This document shows, piece after piece, positions 1-57,674 of a stretch of DNA of 64,000 nucleotides (its first letter is position 1; each line of letters opens with the position of its first letter). Below the pieces are notes generated by a model. That model did no database searches. It was not told the origin of the DNA and saw nothing but the letters and a program-made list of their open reading frames with translations. Source of the stretch: Armatimonadota bacterium (GTDB taxonomy: Bacteria > Armatimonadota > UBA5829 > DTJY01); the NCBI GenBank assembly GCA_029907255.1, contig JARYMF010000002.1, positions 62,001-126,000 on the forward strand. The letters run 5' to 3'. Made by a program: the position numbers and the translations under genes.

Positions 1-1497
1 CGTCCCATCCTCTTTGGCGAGTATTGGTTTCCAGTTTGCCATGAGCAGACCGACGTCATGATCAACCCTGGCTTGCGAGAATATTTTGGCCGCGGCCATG
101 CCGACCCCGATTCGAAGTTTGCAAGGGAAATAGCGGCAGAATATGACCTTCCGGTCATGAAGCCGTGCGCAAAGCCTGGCGCATGGAGCGGTATCTATCA
201 CTCCGAACACATTGTAGGTGGAGCGATATGGGCTTCCCACGACGATGCCTTCTATTTCCCCGATGGAAAGCATTGCGGATATGCTTGGCATCACGGCTTT
301 TGGGGCTTAATTGATGTCTGGCGCCGTCCGAAGCCTGAATGGTATCTTGCACGACTTATCTTCAGCCCTGTTTGTTTTCCAGCTAGTCGTGTGGACTATA
401 TCCCTGGCGAGGAGTCTGTGTGCGTTCCAGTGGAGAATCGCTATTCTTTCACAAATTTGTCGGAACTAAAAGTAACCTGGGAAGTTTGCGGTAAATCAGG
501 AATCATAAAAGCTAGCATTCCCCCTTCTTCGATTGGAAATATTGAGATTCCAATCCCAAAGGGAACTCCGATGGGCGAAAGTGTCATCCTGCGAGCTTGG
601 GATAAAAATGGCAATTTGGTTAATGCCCGTTCGATTCAGCTGGGTGAAATTGAGCAAAAACCTCTGCCAAGAAGTAAGGCGGGCCCGCCGAAATGGCAGG
701 ATGACGGGAAAACAATCGTTGTTTGGGGCAGAGGATTTTCGCTGGTTCTCGACCGCACTCTAGGTGATTTCGCAGTCAATGATAAACGGCATGATGCTCC
801 TATCACTGCATTTCCTTCCATCCACCTGACTAGATATGATTTTGGGGATTTAGCAGGTCCAAACTCACCGCCCTGCGCGGTATTCCCCGACAGCAAAACC
901 AGAGTTGTTGAGGAGGTCTCCGCCGAGGAGACGCAGGAAGGCCTAAAGCTCACTGTTCGCGACCGCTATGAAGGTTTTGCAGGTTGGACCAGCTGGCTTG
1001 TAGATAAAGAAGGCATGGGGCGAATTACTTATGACTATATCTACTTAGGCGACGAGATGAATATGCGGGAGCTAGGCGCAAAGCTTCTCCTAAAGCCTGA
1101 ATGCGACGAGATAAGATGGCGCCGATGGTCGGAGTGGGGAAATGTATTCCCCGAGGATTGCATTCTTAGACCTGAGGGTAGCGCAAGGGCCCGCCGCGAC
1201 TCAAGGTGGGGAGAGGAAGCGTGGAATAAGAAGCCAGCTTGGCCTTGGTCGCTCGACCAAACTGAGCTTGGAACTGCGGACTTCCGCTCGGTAAAGTTCG
1301 ATATATATGAAGCATCGCTAGAATCGCCGGATAGGAAAGGTATCAAAGTTCACGCCAATGCCGACGTTCATGTGCGCCCCGCACTTTCGAAAGACGGCGT
1401 CTGGATGCATATCTTGTCTCAGTGTCGTCTTGGCCAGGTTTTACTAAAAAAGGGCGACCGGCTTTCAGGCGAGTATGTTGTGGAGGTTGTGAAATGA
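1..1497 (+). CDS. GH2-family glycosidase (beta-galactosidase-like), 5' truncated by the window edge
   Basis: The frame is open from base 1, so only the C-terminal ~498 residues are present. The first residues read RPILFGEYWFPV, the GH2 strand carrying the catalytic nucleophile (RPILxxEY in LacZ-type enzymes); the nucleophile would be the Glu at bases 19-21. A typical barrel-end segment follows (GLIDVWRRPKPEW, about residues 105-117), then linker sheets and a C-terminal beta-sandwich like domain 5 of LacZ (MNMRELGAKLLL, about residue 357). Family knowledge: GH2 enzymes hydrolyse beta-galactosides, mannosides or glucuronides; the specificity cannot be read here because the acid/base region lies outside. 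The stop codon overlaps the next start (ATGA), so translation is probably coupled to the DUF4838 gene. The location in the cell is unknown because the N-terminus is missing. Confidence 0.85.
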   Translation, partial: RPILFGEYWFPVCHEQTDVMINPGLREYFGRGHADPDSKFAREIAAEYDLPVMKPCAKPGAWSGIYHSEHIVGGAIWASHDDAFYFPDGKHCGYAWHHGFWGLIDVWRRPKPEWYLARLIFSPVCFPASRVDYIPGEESVCVPVENRYSFTNLSELKVTWEVCGKSGIIKASIPPSSIGNIEIPIPKGTPMGESVILRAWDKNGNLVNARSIQLGEIEQKPLPRSKAGPPKWQDDGKTIVVWGRGFSLVLDRTLGDFAVNDKRHDAPITAFPSIHLTRYDFGDLAGPNSPPCAVFPDSKTRVVEEVSAEETQEGLKLTVRDRYEGFAGWTSWLVDKEGMGRITYDYIYLGDEMNMRELGAKLLLKPECDEIRWRRWSEWGNVFPEDCILRPEGSARARRDSRWGEEAWNKKPAWPWSLDQTELGTADFRSVKFDIYEASLESPDRKGIKVHANADVHVRPALSKDGVWMHILSQCRLGQVLLKKGDRLSGEYVVEVVK

Positions 1498-52047: not shown

Positions 52048-53697
52048 TTATCCAAGGATTGCTTTCAGGTCTTGCTCGGGGGTTGTGATTGGCATGATAT
52101 TGAACTTCTCAACAAGGACGTTTAATGCTGTTGGCGGCAGGTAGGCTGGCAGGCTTGGGCCAAGCCGCATATTTCTTATCCCAAGGTGAAGTAACGTTAG
52201 CAGGATTGCTACTGCTTTTTGTTCATACCATGAAAGTATAAGAGAAAGCGGCAGGTCATTTATGCCTACACCAAAGGCATCTGCAAGAGCCGCTGCTATT
52301 TGGATTGCCGAATAAGCATCATTGCACTGGCCAATGTCGAGTAACCTTGGGATTCCACCAATGTCTCCCAGGTCCATTTTGTTGAAGCGGTACTTTCCGC
52401 ATGCTAATGTGAGTATGACGGTGTCCTTTGGAGCTTTTTCAACAAACTCTGTGTAGTAATTTCGTCCCGCTTTGGCGCCATCGCACCCACCGACGAGAAA
52501 GAAATGACGTATCGCTCCGCTTTTGACCGCCTCAATGATTGCATCAGCTGTGCTGAGCACTGCCTGCCGCCCAAAGCCTACGGTTATATACTTTTCCTCG
52601 CCATCTTCCGTGAATCCGGGTGCAGCGAGTGCTGCTTCGATTACTGGTGTGAAGTCTTTGTTCGCTATGTGTTTTACGCCTGGCCAGCCAACAAGACCTG
52701 TGGTGAAAATGCGGTCCTTGTAAACGTCACTCGGGCGCTGGAGGCAGTTTGTTGTCATAAGTATTGCGCCTGGGAAGGCGGCAAACTCCCTTATCTGGTT
52801 TTGCCAGGCGCTTCCATAATTGCCAACTAGATGCTTATATGCCTTAAGCTTTGGATATCCGTGCGCCGGAAGCATCTCACCATGGGTGTAAACGTTTATT
52901 CCCTTTCCGTCCGTCTGCTTTAGTAGCTCCTCGAGGTCTTTGAGATCATGGCCAGAGACGGCAATTGCTTTTCCTTTAACAGGCTCGATGCGCACCTTTG
53001 TCGGCTCGGGATGACCATATGCACTCGTGTTTGCCGCATCTAAGAGCTCCATGGCTTTCAGATTTAGTTCGCCGATTTTTAGGCACATTCCAAGCAACTC
53101 TTCAACGGTTGTATTCTCTTTCGTAAGAAAGTCTAAGCCTTCATGAGATCTGGCATAGACTTCATCGGATTCCTTGCCGAGAATTTGTGCATGGTCTGCG
53201 TATGCAGCTGCACCTTTCAAACCATACAGCACAAGATCTTGAAGCGCAGTAATCTCTTCGCCAAATTTTTTCCTACGCGCAATGACGCCTACCGATTCAC
53301 CTTGACGAAGAAGACCATCGCGGTCGGTTGCCGGAGTCCATCTCGCAGGACCATTAAGCAATTCGGGGGACTTGCCAGATTTTCGAGCAGCTTCTTCGTA
53401 AAGCTTACGTGCTTTTTCTTTTATCTCTGCCGCTTTTCTTACGAGTTCTTCAATTCGGTCGGCGTCGAAATCAACATTTGTTACCGTGGAAAATAGCGAT
53501 TCGAGTACGAACACATCCACGGCACGGTCGGATAATCCTAACTGTCTAGCTCGATGAGCGTACATGGAGATGCCTTCGGTTGCATAGACAAGAAGATCCA
53601 TCAAAGTTGTCGCTACAGGGTCTTTGCCGCAGACGCCTTGGATGGTACATCCGGTTCCTTTTGCTGTTTGCTCGCACTGATAACAGAACATTTCCAT
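52048..53697 (-). CDS. hcp: Hybrid-cluster protein (hydroxylamine/NO reductase)
   Basis: The product has 549 residues, typical. The N-terminal cluster ligands are C5, C8, C17 and C23 (FCYQCEQTAKGTGC). Hybrid-cluster ligands are visible as VSGHDL, YTHGEMLPAHGYP, TTNCLQRP, VGGCDGAKAG, TLACGKYRF and SWYEQKA. Hcp reduces NO to N2O or hydroxylamine under nitrosative stress. It is the last gene of the rrf2-ferredoxin-hcp unit, 67 bases after the ferredoxin gene. Strong assignment. Confidence 0.98.
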   Translation of the reverse strand: MEMFCYQCEQTAKGTGCTIQGVCGKDPVATTLMDLLVYATEGISMYAHRARQLGLSDRAVDVFVLESLFSTVTNVDFDADRIEELVRKAAEIKEKARKLYEEAARKSGKSPELLNGPARWTPATDRDGLLRQGESVGVIARRKKFGEEITALQDLVLYGLKGAAAYADHAQILGKESDEVYARSHEGLDFLTKENTTVEELLGMCLKIGELNLKAMELLDAANTSAYGHPEPTKVRIEPVKGKAIAVSGHDLKDLEELLKQTDGKGINVYTHGEMLPAHGYPKLKAYKHLVGNYGSAWQNQIREFAAFPGAILMTTNCLQRPSDVYKDRIFTTGLVGWPGVKHIANKDFTPVIEAALAAPGFTEDGEEKYITVGFGRQAVLSTADAIIEAVKSGAIRHFFLVGGCDGAKAGRNYYTEFVEKAPKDTVILTLACGKYRFNKMDLGDIGGIPRLLDIGQCNDAYSAIQIAAALADAFGVGINDLPLSLILSWYEQKAVAILLTLLHLGIRNMRLGPSLPAYLPPTALNVLVEKFNIMPITTPEQDLKAILG

Positions 53698-53764: not shown

Positions 53765-54526
53765 TTAGCTGTTTATCTCCTCACCGCGAATTGAAATAAT
53801 AATTTCATTAATTGGTATTTCTTTTCCCGATGCTGCGACTGCCATTTGGGCAATCCTTGTGAGGCCGCTGCAGCAGGGAACTTCCATGCGCGCTACCATT
53901 AAACTTTTTATGTCGGAATGAGCTAGTATCTCTGTGAGTTTTTCAATGTAATAAGGCGCATCGTCGAGCTTTGGACAGCCAATAACCAGCACTTTGCCGT
54001 GTAACATTTTGCGGTGGAAAGCCGAATATGCGAACGGCACACAGTCTGCCGCTAGCAGAACGTTTGCGCCCTGAAAATAGGGAGCATTGGATGGTACCAA
54101 TCGTAGCTGGACCGGCCAATTGCAAAGAGATGATGGGGCGACGTCCCCTTGCTCCGACTCGCTGGTCGCGGTAGGTGTGAGTATTTGAACATTAGTACCT
54201 GGACATCCACAGGGGAGTTGTTCGTTGTTTCGTGTTTCTGAGGTTTGAACTCCAGTATCCGACTTTTGAATTGTCGGTTGTTGGGCAACCCATTCTTTTG
54301 CTTTATGTTCGTCGAAAGGCTCAGCTTCCCGTTCTTCAATCGTTATTGCTCCTTGGGGACATTCCCCAATGCATGCGCCCAAGCCATCACAATAGCTTTC
54401 GCTTACCAGTCGAGCTTTGCCTTCGATAATTTTGATTGCTCCTTCAGCACATGCATCCACACAAAGCCCACACCCGTTGCATTTCTCTTCGTCGATTTTG
54501 ATGATTTTTCTGACCACCTTTTGCAT
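53765..54526 (-). CDS. Two-cluster ferredoxin-domain protein, Hcp partner
   Basis: The product has 253 residues. The first 4Fe-4S motif is complete (C16, C19, C22, C26: CNGCGLCVDAC). The second reads CDGLGACIGECP: C46, C52, C56 with Leu49 where a Cys would be, and a similar pattern is common in this Hcp-linked group. Residues 60-120 are a Gln/Ser/Thr-rich linker with CGCPG. The C-terminal domain has further Cys pairs (VPCCSGLTRIAQMA). It is likely the electron donor to Hcp. It starts eight bases after rrf2. Confidence 0.85.
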   Translation of the reverse strand: MQKVVRKIIKIDEEKCNGCGLCVDACAEGAIKIIEGKARLVSESYCDGLGACIGECPQGAITIEEREAEPFDEHKAKEWVAQQPTIQKSDTGVQTSETRNNEQLPCGCPGTNVQILTPTATSESEQGDVAPSSLCNWPVQLRLVPSNAPYFQGANVLLAADCVPFAYSAFHRKMLHGKVLVIGCPKLDDAPYYIEKLTEILAHSDIKSLMVARMEVPCCSGLTRIAQMAVAASGKEIPINEIIISIRGEEINS

Positions 54527-54534
54527 GCTCCTTA

Positions 54535-54945
54535 TTACGATTTACAACACAGATAATCTAGCGTTGTAGAAGCTAGATATTCTTTGACCTGTGTATTTAC
54601 GGAATGAATGAGATTGCCGAAGATACACTTGCTTCTTTGGCACACAGGTTTGCCCAAGAAGCAGTCTATTGGTTTTAGGACGCCTTCGATTGCTTCGTAA
54701 ACCTCCAGAAGCGTAATTTCGGCTGGTGATTTTGCCAAACGAAATCCTCCACCTTGACCGCGGACAGACTCAACCAATCCTGCTTTAGCGAGACGCTGGC
54801 AAACTTTTGCCAGATGGTTTTCGGAAACACCTAGCTCAGAGGCGATCTCCCGAGTTGATATCCATCTTCCAGGAGATTGGACTAGAAAAGCCATGGTATG
54901 AAATGCCAGCGAGGCTCCATCTGTTATTCTCAACATATTTGACAT
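54535..54945 (-). CDS. Rrf2-family iron-sulfur regulator
   Basis: The product has 136 residues, starting at the ATG at 54945 (MSNMLRITDGASLAFHTMAF); the open frame extends upstream but that part overlaps the promoter. The winged helix has VSENHLAKVCQRLAKAGLV and VRGQGGGFRLA. Three Cys in CFLGKPVCQRSKCIFG likely bind an Fe-S cluster, as in IscR and NsrR. NO-sensing Rrf2 proteins repress hcp-type genes, so an NsrR-like role is likely, but the exact orthology is not proven. It is first in the operon and has a palindrome over its -10. Confidence 0.92.
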   Translation of the reverse strand: MSNMLRITDGASLAFHTMAFLVQSPGRWISTREIASELGVSENHLAKVCQRLAKAGLVESVRGQGGGFRLAKSPAEITLLEVYEAIEGVLKPIDCFLGKPVCQRSKCIFGNLIHSVNTQVKEYLASTTLDYLCCKS

Positions 54946-54960
54946 TGCTTCACCCAATGA

Positions 54961-55007
54961 ATAAGGTATTTCGGTACCCTTATACCCATTTTTTATCACT
55001 CTGTCAA
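54961..55007 (-). promoter_or_regulatory. rrf2-hcp promoter with overlapping palindromic operator
   Basis: On the minus strand TTGACA (55002-55007), 17 bases, TATAAG (54979-54984). An inverted repeat ATAAGG-N11-CCTTAT (54961-54983) covers the -10 and start site. It is well placed for binding by the dimeric Rrf2 product; binding is inferred. Confidence 0.65.
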
Positions 55008-55021
55008 CATGTCAGATAAAC

Positions 55022-55053
55022 TTTTTGTGATTTATTTTTGTGATTTATTTTTG
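55022..55053. repeat. 13-bp tandem repeat with TTGTGA half-sites
   Basis: Two full copies of TTTTTGTGATTTA (55022-55034 and 55035-55047) and a partial third run between the DUF4838 stop and the rrf2 promoter. It is an A/T-rich block just upstream of the -35 and could act as an UP element. TTGTGA is also a CRP/HcpR-type half-site but both copies point the same way. Confidence 0.6.
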
Positions 55054-55058
55054 CAAGG

Positions 55059-57674
55059 CTACTCTTCGGGTGGTGTGTCCCTTTGCGTGTTGGAAACGCC
55101 CTCGGTTGTTAAACCAAGCGAACTAACTGGTAGGCGGATTATTGAGATGTCGTCAACCCAAGCTCGCGCTTTCGAGTGCTGGCGCATTACATTGATGAGC
55201 ACTTCGATTGAATCTGTGCCTGCAGGAGTGGTATAAGTCATGCGAAACTCCTGCCATTGGGTGGTTGGGGTTATCGGCTCTCTTATCCAATTTATGATTT
55301 TGTCGCCACTTTTTGCATTTACCCTGAGACCATAAAGGGCGGGTACATTGTTTGGGCCAGGATGTTCCAATGAGCGTAGCCAGACAGAAATTAGAAATTT
55401 CTCGCCTGGACCTGCTTGAACCCTTTTAACGATACTTGATGATTTGCAGTTCCAAATAATCGCACACCGCTCGCCGGAGTGGGGTTTCTCACGTGTGATG
55501 GCTACTGACCCTTGCTTTGGTTCATCGTGCCGTAGCTCAGGCTTTACTCCGCCCTCAAAGCCGCCATCGTTGGCGAGATTGGTTAAGTTTTGATTCGATG
55601 CCATTGCAAGAACTGCCTGTGCGGACTGGGCAATAATTGGGTCGGGGTCTTTAGCAAGTCGTTGCCACTCCGGGTCTTTTGGATTGGCTTTAAACGCCAT
55701 CTCGAAGCCTTTGTCTATTGCCTGGTGGACCTCCTGCGGTATTTCACCAACTTTAATAAAGTCATACGGCTCGCGGTAAATCATGTGCCATTGTTTGATT
55801 GGTTCTTTTTCCATGACTTTCTCTTTATACTCGGCTTTTGCTCGAGCAAGGCGTAAAACCTCGCGAGCTTGACTGGCTGCTTCTGATGCACTGCGGCATT
55901 TTGGCAGCGACTTTGTGAGCCAATATTCATGGTCGCATATGCGCACGAATTCAAATATTGCTTTTACGATGTGGATACGTTCCTTTACCTTCGCATCTCG
56001 TGCTTTTGCTTCGGCTTTTTGAAGAGCCTCCCATGCTAAGTCCGCGCCTCTCGCTGTCAGAACCTGGAATTGTTCATAATCATGGTCGAGATCAAGGTCA
56101 CTTCTGTCGGGCCCATAGGGGTGCGGTGGTGAGGTATTCTTTAGCCATGTTTCGTAATCTTTTTCGAGCAATTCATAAAATCTTTGCATTTCCTTTGCGG
56201 ATTCACCGAACATGTCGGAGTAATATTGCTCAAGGATTTTATCTTCGTCGAGACGAGGATCCCATTGAAGTTCAGCAGTTACAATGGCGGCGTGGGCATC
56301 TAGCGGGTAGGTTGGATTAAATTCTTTATAGTAGCCGCGCTGTACTCCACTGCCAACCATGTACCGGATTCGCCGTGCTTCTTGGTGGGGGTTAATCTTT
56401 GGAATGATGAACCATCGGTCATCATGGTAGCCGTAGTGGCCCATGTTCTTAGCTCCAGCGGCAATCCACGAATCCCAGCCGCGATAAAGTCCTTGCCCCA
56501 TAGCGCAGAAATAAGGCACGAGATTTGGGTGGAGCTTTACGGTCTTTGGTGGGAATCGGACACCCCCATATGCAAGAAAGCCAATCAATCTATCTGGGTG
56601 TTTTGCCGTTACTTTCTCTGCTACGGCATTCATGAATTTGACATACCTATCGGTCAGCTGGGTTGTGTTTATGTCGGATTCGGGCGCATCCATCGCTCTG
56701 CAATTCGCGCACTCGCAATGACCTGCCCCATCATTTACGGAGAGTGCGTGGCAGATTCGATAGGGGTCTCTGTCAAATGCGGCAGTGATTTTCTGTGCGC
56801 AAATATCTACTACTTCAGGATTGCTGACACAAGGTTGCCAATGTATCTGCTTGGTTGGGACAAAGCGTTTGCCATTTATTTCGGGGAAGTACTCAGGATG
56901 CGTTTTTCCATATTCTTCAGGCGAAACGAGGCTGAAGAAGTTGTGCATCATCGAGAGTGTCGTTCCACACCGATACCAAAAGAACATCCAGGGTGGATTG
57001 CCTTCCTTCTGCGTTAATTCCCAGCCCTTAGGATTAAAGCCTACGTGGCGGCTAATGAGATACGGCCAGTCAATCCAGGTGAGCTTTGGCACAGTTAGCG
57101 TTGGTCGCTTTTCGAAGACGTCGCCAATCCCTCCAGGCTCTGATGGCCAATAACGCCGAACCCCTAGATACTCGCGGATAAAAGAATAAGTTGCGTAATT
57201 ATTGCCTATATCTTTATTGCCCCGAATTACTAGTGTGTTTTGGTTAACCGTCTTCACCATGAAGCCGTGTAGGTTCGGGAGTGTGAGGTCTCCATATTTA
57301 ATCGGCGGCAGCTGGGGCATGGCTTCCCTGCCAACGTCTGTGTTTCCAATATAAATTGCCGGGCCATGCGCGAAAGGTTCTGACTTGATATCAAAATCAG
57401 CACCTGTGACCAATTTTAAGTAAAGCTTCAGTAATTCAGCGCATTTTGTTTCATAATTAGTCGGCTTCGCAGGGATTACAATTGTACACGCAGGTTTTCC
57501 ATCCTTGGCGATAGTAAAATAGTCAGGTTCACCAACCTCTCTGGGTGGCGGCCAGTTGAAATCCACCTTCTCGACGGGTAAAATCTTTGGGTGCCACTCA
57601 TCAGCCATTACTAATGAGGTGATTGGGCAACTTGCGATTAAAAATATCAAAACAAAGAATGCTAAAATTCTCAT
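55059..57674 (-). CDS. Secreted DUF4838 protein with C-terminal CBM-like domain
   Basis: The product has 871 residues. A signal peptide covers about 1-24. The alpha-glucuronidase-like N-terminal part runs to about 200 (ATYSFIREYLGVRRYWPSEP). The DUF4838 region has SNPE at 284-287 and a C-x-C-x2-C cluster at C320, C322, C325 (GHCECANC), with the same spacing as in the protein at 1494-3425. A helical part (about 560-690) precedes a CBM4/9-like sandwich (about 695-850: NDGGFEGGVKP, ARAWVDDISIIRL). Reaction unknown. It stands alone, divergent from the DUF1361 gene. AGGAGG lies 14 bases from the ATG; AAGGG six bases away may serve instead. Confidence 0.85.
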   Translation of the reverse strand: MRILAFFVLIFLIASCPITSLVMADEWHPKILPVEKVDFNWPPPREVGEPDYFTIAKDGKPACTIVIPAKPTNYETKCAELLKLYLKLVTGADFDIKSEPFAHGPAIYIGNTDVGREAMPQLPPIKYGDLTLPNLHGFMVKTVNQNTLVIRGNKDIGNNYATYSFIREYLGVRRYWPSEPGGIGDVFEKRPTLTVPKLTWIDWPYLISRHVGFNPKGWELTQKEGNPPWMFFWYRCGTTLSMMHNFFSLVSPEEYGKTHPEYFPEINGKRFVPTKQIHWQPCVSNPEVVDICAQKITAAFDRDPYRICHALSVNDGAGHCECANCRAMDAPESDINTTQLTDRYVKFMNAVAEKVTAKHPDRLIGFLAYGGVRFPPKTVKLHPNLVPYFCAMGQGLYRGWDSWIAAGAKNMGHYGYHDDRWFIIPKINPHQEARRIRYMVGSGVQRGYYKEFNPTYPLDAHAAIVTAELQWDPRLDEDKILEQYYSDMFGESAKEMQRFYELLEKDYETWLKNTSPPHPYGPDRSDLDLDHDYEQFQVLTARGADLAWEALQKAEAKARDAKVKERIHIVKAIFEFVRICDHEYWLTKSLPKCRSASEAASQAREVLRLARAKAEYKEKVMEKEPIKQWHMIYREPYDFIKVGEIPQEVHQAIDKGFEMAFKANPKDPEWQRLAKDPDPIIAQSAQAVLAMASNQNLTNLANDGGFEGGVKPELRHDEPKQGSVAITREKPHSGERCAIIWNCKSSSIVKRVQAGPGEKFLISVWLRSLEHPGPNNVPALYGLRVNAKSGDKIINWIREPITPTTQWQEFRMTYTTPAGTDSIEVLINVMRQHSKARAWVDDISIIRLPVSSLGLTTEGVSNTQRDTPPEE

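Follow-up and report, generated by a model that had tools for sequence, protein, structure and literature searches.

Two regulators account for most of the described control of hcp, the gene of the hybrid cluster protein: facultative bacteria use NsrR and anaerobes HcpR, with frdX as a ferredoxin-like partner gene (PMC1274295). In Streptomyces NsrR, Asp8 is described as the fourth ligand of the Fe-S cluster, contributed by the other subunit, and Arg12 as linking Asp8 to the recognition-helix region (PMC5411485), and His42 and Lys45 of ScNsrR are placed at the DNA interface (PMC9338935). A 2026 preprint presents an Rrf2 protein of Lachnospiraceae, C0FN14, that has Asp8 and lies beside an O2-reducing flavodiiron system (PMC13404960). 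Searching the open-access literature, with subscription papers and RegPrecise outside the search, we found no account of the operator or the clade considered below.

The window, i.e. the whole stretch of 64,000 nucleotides of an Armatimonadota genome that was analysed, carries on its minus strand an operon in the order rrf2, 2x[4Fe-4S] ferredoxin, hcp. The regulator gene (54535..54945) encodes 136 aa with the cysteines C95-x6-C102-x4-C107 and a histidine, H16; it is followed by a 2x[4Fe-4S] ferredoxin-like gene (53765..54526), called FrdX-like here by analogy, and by hcp, which encodes a hybrid cluster protein/hydroxylamine reductase (52048..53697; NCBIfam NF003658, 820.8 bits against a cut-off of 367). 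The likely start of rrf2 is the ATG at 54945, which agrees with the homologs, the GTG at 54999 being the mechanical start. On the same strand, the promoter consists of a perfect -35 hexamer, TTGACA (55002..55007), and, at a spacing of 17 bp, a -10 hexamer, TATAAG (54979..54984), that matches at five of six positions; it escaped a promoter scanner because the scanner requires the sixth-position T, which is missing here. A preliminary description of this DNA had pointed to a consensus promoter directly upstream of a three-Cys Rrf2 gene, and this reading of the locus was borne out. Upstream of the promoter there is a tandem duplication of TTTGTGATTTATT (55021-55052), present as a single copy in the congener L017, and directly upstream, on the same strand, lies a gene for a DUF4838 protein (55059-57674; PF16126, 147.8 bits).

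The same description had proposed that a palindrome, ATAAGG-N11-CCTTAT, over the -10 is the Rrf2 operator and may define a new recognition sequence. In favour of this proposal, the palindrome ATAAGGTATTTCGGTACCCTTAT is exact at 54961-54983 and overlaps TATAAG; against it, the element is not conserved, the congener having ATAAGA..CCTAAT, and its counts show no excess. At up to two mismatches there are 2 matches in the window where 2.48 are expected, and 126 in the organism's genome against 206 for the reversed pattern; at up to three mismatches it occurs upstream of 5 of the 76 orthologs (from the best 80 of 546) against 5.5 expected. We therefore rejected it, and it is hardly conceivable that this palindrome is itself the operator. 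The broader idea, that a new Rrf2 recognition sequence lies over the hcp promoter, is nevertheless strongly supported, with a different dyad, offset from the palindrome by 3.5 bp, in its place.

This dyad, GGTAT-N4-GTAC-N4-ATACC, came from a comparison of orthologs. Among the 101 genomes of the phylum that were searched, 82 had some Rrf2 match, and 11 loci (L017-L027, 43-95% identity) were close orthologs, whose upstream regions, together with that of the window, served to define the pattern. It is common to most of these 12 regions, exact or with few mismatches; in the congener it is exact, whereas in L026 it is partial and in L025 no dyad is evident. In the window the predicted operator reads GGTAT-AAGG-GTAC-CGAA-ATACC, a 22-bp dyad on the minus strand (54965..54986), and the A/T-rich triplets found two bases beyond each end (AAA at 54991-54989 and ATT at 54962-54960, logo columns -4..-2 and 25..27) give an extended operator at 54960..54991.

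The test set was obtained by a scan of genome contigs for relatives, of which the best 80 of 546 were kept; four of these loci were dropped, L062, L072 and L136 because they share contigs with training loci and L089 because it has too little upstream sequence, leaving 76. The dyad was present with at most three mismatches in 54 of these 76 further upstream regions (from the best 80 of 546), compared with 0.4 in dinucleotide shuffles, and with at most two mismatches in 37, compared with 0.1. Twelve altered spacings gave between 0 and 3 of the same 76 regions at up to two mismatches; at up to three, the spacing 4/3 matched 25 of the 76, because it leaves two of the three blocks in register. When the regulators were thinned to less than 55% identity, the dyad was retained in 27 of 36 at up to three mismatches. 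Expectation maximization on the 76 regions (again from the best 80 of 546), with no pattern given, converged on tttGGTATt.TaGTACCagAATAc; the site fraction was 0.90 and the log-likelihood ratio 759, and none of eight runs on input with shuffled letters exceeded 89. Shuffling was by dinucleotides for the 76-region test and by single letters for the tests of the EM motif, the regions upstream of hcp, the flavodiiron/NorB genes and the known consensuses. The aligned sites read RGTATWNTRGTACYNRAATACY, with the A/T-rich triplets at either side; further out the logo contains little information beyond an upstream TTGAC block and faint signals for purines on the side of the start codon. Since sites were chosen by the pattern, the core columns of the logo are partly circular, which is not true of the EM motif.

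As a negative control, the dyad was sought upstream of 18 weaker Rrf2 homologs from the same phylum and was found in none at up to four mismatches. It was also absent at up to three mismatches from 22 of the 76 regions (best 80 of 546), including eight Melainabacteria-like loci. In these eight (L070, L079, L110, L112, L113, L117, L125 and L134) the left half and the GTAC centre are mostly kept and the right arm is changed to a GTACCAGTTAG-like form, which is perhaps a variant operator. On the comparison of sequences, the assignment of 54965-54986 as the predicted operator, and that of its targets, are well supported. A similar, wider dyad of 24 bp, GGTAT-N5-GTAC-N5-TTACC, was observed upstream of another Rrf2 gene (L029), the product of which the tree places together with E. 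coli NsrR.

As to the position of the dyad in the promoter, the -10 (TATWNT) coincides with columns 3-8 of the logo, within the left half, and a TTGAC-like block is found in the orthologs at about the same distance as the -35 in the window. A -35 hexamer with at least five of six matches was present at 34 of 54 sites, with best spacings of 16, 17 and 18 in 13, 18 and 3 of them, a count that takes the best of five spacings and has no control. Repressor and polymerase could presumably not occupy the operator DNA together, and transcription would be expected to start within the right half-site or beside it. Another explanation would see in the conserved block no protein site but just a -10 element together with a feature of the leader or the RNA, given that the left half contains the -10 and the block lies near the expected transcription start. 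However, the block is a dyad, the motif found de novo includes a central GTACC and a right AATAc that a promoter does not need, and hcp genes not linked to the regulator also have the site, 81-157 bp upstream, so that we consider this explanation very improbable.

In the organism's own genome, the dyad with up to three mismatches shows no genome-wide excess (91 matches against 143 for the control). Eleven other places with one or two mismatches (L047-L057) all fall within ORFs; nine of the eleven belong to a single family of membrane proteins, grouped by likeness. With a tighter consensus at up to two mismatches, only the hcp promoter and two of these ORFs remain; since the hcp promoter thus has the single promoter site, the system would act there as a local autoregulatory switch. 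The membrane proteins concerned (L047-L052 and L055-L057, on contigs C2, C3, C9, C10 and C19) share a WYLGTLIPV-like stretch whose codons mimic the operator, and they exist in many copies, some of them clustered. The congener genome (G001) has further places with two mismatches (L201-L204).

For a scan of other organisms, 46 genomes were picked from those of the loci. The consensus with at most one mismatch was found in 27 of them, against 2 hits for the reversed control, at 29 distinct sites. Of the 28 that were read, 22 stand before an rrf2 of this type, four before an unlinked hcp (L149, L150, L151 and L168) and two before a NarI/Hdr-like operon; the remaining one belongs to the rrf2 of L075. 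In two genomes (G105 and G146) the site stands before a second copy of rrf2. The two NarI/Hdr-like cases, both at positions 1501-1522 of their loci (L153 and L155) in Desulfarculus-like genomes, precede a gene for a nitrate-reductase-gamma/4Fe-4S membrane protein, behind which a CCG-type protein (the FFPGCKIP reading frame) is encoded; Pfam identification was made for the L193 copies (L193 6054-8632, L194 1-2193), L153 and L155 being assigned by likeness. This membrane protein may be an electron donor for Hcp.

A separate search addressed 40 chosen genomes with no hcp beside rrf2. An hcp was found in 23 of the 40 at E <= 1e-40 and in the other 17 none at that threshold; 23 hcp rows with upstream sequence were scanned, a single gene being split over two of them (L190 and L192). 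Five of the 23 rows had a site with at most two mismatches, 81-157 bp upstream, and two had one at three mismatches, whereas 16 had none at up to three; three of those 16 lie behind another rrf2, and the rrf2 in L181 has its own site at two mismatches. The five genomes with a site at up to two mismatches before an unlinked hcp are G103, G115, G120 and G125, already seen in the consensus search, and a new one, G148. Two named strains are represented among the loci, Desulfocarbo indianensis (L091) and Dethiosulfatarculus sandiegensis (L133); in the former an unlinked hcp has a site. Sites before unlinked hcp genes indicate that the link between regulator and site is not merely due to common descent of one locus. 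As regards the genome scan that the preliminary description had suggested, the corrected dyad thus marks one promoter in the organism's own genome and, in other genomes, stands before unlinked hcp and other operons as well. Flavodiiron and NorB genes in 36 chosen genomes gave a different outcome: of 31 scannable loci (out of 32), none had a site at up to three mismatches, the best having four, within 300 bp upstream. Since part of these genes are internal to operons, their promoter may be further up.

The regulator belongs to the Rrf2 superfamily (Pfam PF02082, 119.6 bits, cut-off 30; TIGR00738, 109.8 bits, cut-off 73.3). Its AlphaFold monomer (mean pLDDT 89.3) matches chains of CymR, RsrR, IscR and NsrR; as a predicted model it confirms the Rrf2 fold and decides nothing on the subfamily. 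In a tree built from few columns, in which the E. coli references sit on long branches, the window protein and 79 others fall on one side of a branch with support 100/98, and 18 paralogs, EcNsrR and EcIscR on the other; rows of this clade are labelled with more than fifteen phyla. No variation occurs at C95, C102, C107, H16, S41, H44 or V48 across the 80 readable rows, L092 having been left out of the count. S12 aligns with Asp8 of E. coli NsrR and H16 with its Arg12: the former position is Ser in 71 rows, Ala in 8 and Thr in 1, and never Asp, while the latter is His in all 80. With Ser, Ala or Thr at the Asp8 position, the subfamily is without the NsrR ligand, and H16 may replace Asp8 in holding the cluster. 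In RsrR, where Cys, Glu (Glu8) and His (His12) reportedly bind a [2Fe-2S] cluster, the residue that aligns with H16 is His12; across the subfamily the His equivalent is invariant and the Glu equivalent absent. Three residues past the third Cys, 77 of the 80 readable rows have Gly (Gly110), the remaining ones Asp, Asn and Ser (one each). As marks of the subfamily we propose the three Cys (x6, then x3-4 in most rows), H16, H44, K47 and the upstream dyad, all of which the window displays.

Among the best 80 of 546 loci, hcp is found in 41, the ferredoxin gene in 50 and either of them in 66; in L106 hcp is upstream of rrf2. Eight of the 14 loci with neither (still among the best 80 of 546) have other named genes. 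In L120 and L126 a cytochrome c gene and norB (norCB) take the place of hcp, the NorB of L120 matching solved NorB (E 1e-112) and that of L126 being 72% identical to the L120 protein. A flavodiiron protein is found instead of hcp in L073, L103, L122 and L132; for that of L132 the matches include a nitric oxide reductase of solved structure (E 4e-107) and also O2-reducing relatives, the structure search listing rubredoxin:oxygen oxidoreductase and F420H2 oxidase. L127 has a nitrite/sulfite-reductase-like protein and L109 cytochrome b with a multihaem cytochrome. Mismatches in the sites of these loci number two in L120, one in L126, three in each of the four flavodiiron loci, two in L127 and none in L109. 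No recognised NO-linked cargo was seen in L068, L087, L061 and L102, and L076 and L139 break off less than 55 and 24 bases from rrf2 (within 54 and 23, respectively). Three loci (L071, L098 and L105) combine rrf2, hcp and a flavodiiron protein, in the order rrf2-flavodiiron-hcp or rrf2-hcp-flavodiiron. In L082, and by likeness of its start probably in L092, sufB follows the ferredoxin gene, which fits sensing of Fe-S status.

What hcp, norCB and many flavodiiron proteins have in common is NO reduction, and for this reason NO is the most likely signal, although our confidence is slightly lowered by the weakness of the flavodiiron sites and by the possibility that these proteins reduce O2. We regard it as probable that an autorepressor covers the -10 of operons for NO detoxification and leaves the DNA once its Fe-S cluster has been altered by NO. 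Sequence comparison supports the clade, the target genes and the operator with its autoregulatory placement over the -10; binding, repression, the cluster, ligation by H16 and NO as the signal are inferred. Counting against this reading are the 22 of 76 regions and the 16 of 23 hcp rows that lack a site, the negative result for flavodiiron and NorB genes, the presence of hcp in no more than 41 of 80 loci (best 80 of 546), the 17 of 40 genomes without an hcp match, and sufB behind the ferredoxin gene. In the window, Rrf2 would repress its own operon, rrf2-ferredoxin-hcp, through 54965-54986: a dimer would read GGTAT..GT|AC..ATACC and, with the -10 in the left half, the bound repressor would shut out RNA polymerase. 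The signal, most likely nitric oxide, would alter the Fe-S cluster of the regulator, held by C95, C102 and C107 together with, probably, the H16 of the other subunit, and thereby cause release from the DNA, after which Hcp and its ferredoxin would be made, together with more repressor that closes the loop.

One may also consider the same operator and repressor responding to general Fe-S, redox or oxygen status, with hcp serving oxidative-stress defence or Fe-S repair. The frequency of the ferredoxin gene (50 of 80 loci, best 80 of 546) and sufB behind it in L082 and, by likeness, L092 agree with such a signal, as do the redox sensor RsrR as the best match among solved structures, with a His at the His12 position, and the capacity of flavodiiron proteins to act as O2 reductases. 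Yet norCB, flavodiiron protein and hcp, for all three of which NO reduction is known, interchange behind the same regulator, and we hold a general redox or Fe-S signal to be unlikely. There is perhaps an even chance, or slightly better, that the NO-responsive repressor represents a third, undescribed lineage of NO regulators for hcp beside NsrR and HcpR, spread over many phyla and characterised by a Cys3-His Rrf2 protein, a 22-bp operator fused to the -10 and interchangeable NO-reducing cargo. To the known control of NO-detoxifying genes this adds, in poorly studied phyla, a separate lineage of Rrf2 proteins whose operator is defined; the operator lets targets of this Rrf2 subfamily be called from sequence, and Cys3-His cluster ligation is predicted for the subfamily.

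The comparison with known systems begins with the promoter, on which the consensuses of NsrR, HcpR (three forms), RisR, NorR2 and IscR type 1 fitted poorly, 98-300 of 300 shuffles being as good, whereas the new dyad fits perfectly and no shuffle of 300 was as good. The suggestion in the preliminary description of a site unlike those of NsrR and IscR is strongly supported for the new dyad. For the NsrR operator, gATGyAT-N5-ATrCATc (PMC1274295), the best fit had 6 of 14 mismatches and 287 of 300 shuffles were as good. The protein is likewise remote from both equivalogs of NCBIfam, scoring 49 bits for NsrR (cut-off 182) and 59.3 bits for IscR (cut-off 207.55), without an equivalent of His107.

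The new regulator has in common with NsrR the Rrf2 fold, three Cys, hcp among its targets and the recognition helix, in which H44 and K47 align with a His and a Lys of E. coli NsrR, but it is only 29% identical to that protein, has Ser, Ala or Thr for Asp8 and an invariant His for Arg12, and its operator differs from gATGyAT-N5-ATrCATc. RsrR, a Streptomyces Rrf2 redox sensor, is its best sequence match in the PDB and shares the His at position 12; compared by residues, the equivalent of Glu8 is Ser, Ala or Thr here, and there are three Cys. RisR and IscR, regulators of Fe-S biogenesis, are also three-Cys Rrf2 proteins, but there is no His107 equivalent here, their motifs do not fit, and their targets are others. 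Like the new dyad, the site bound by RisR in promoters that it represses is an A/T-flanked palindrome (PMC9973013). C0FN14 resembles the new regulator as an Rrf2 beside a flavodiiron gene in anaerobes, and differs in having Asp8 and in being tied to an O2-reducing system (PMC13404960). With HcpR, the regulator of hcp and frdX in anaerobes, the new regulator shares hcp and a ferredoxin-like gene as targets (PMC1274295); HcpR, however, is of the CRP/FNR family, and the promoter has no HcpR-type site. In sum, the dyad is a new recognition sequence of the Rrf2 family, shared within a widespread subfamily.
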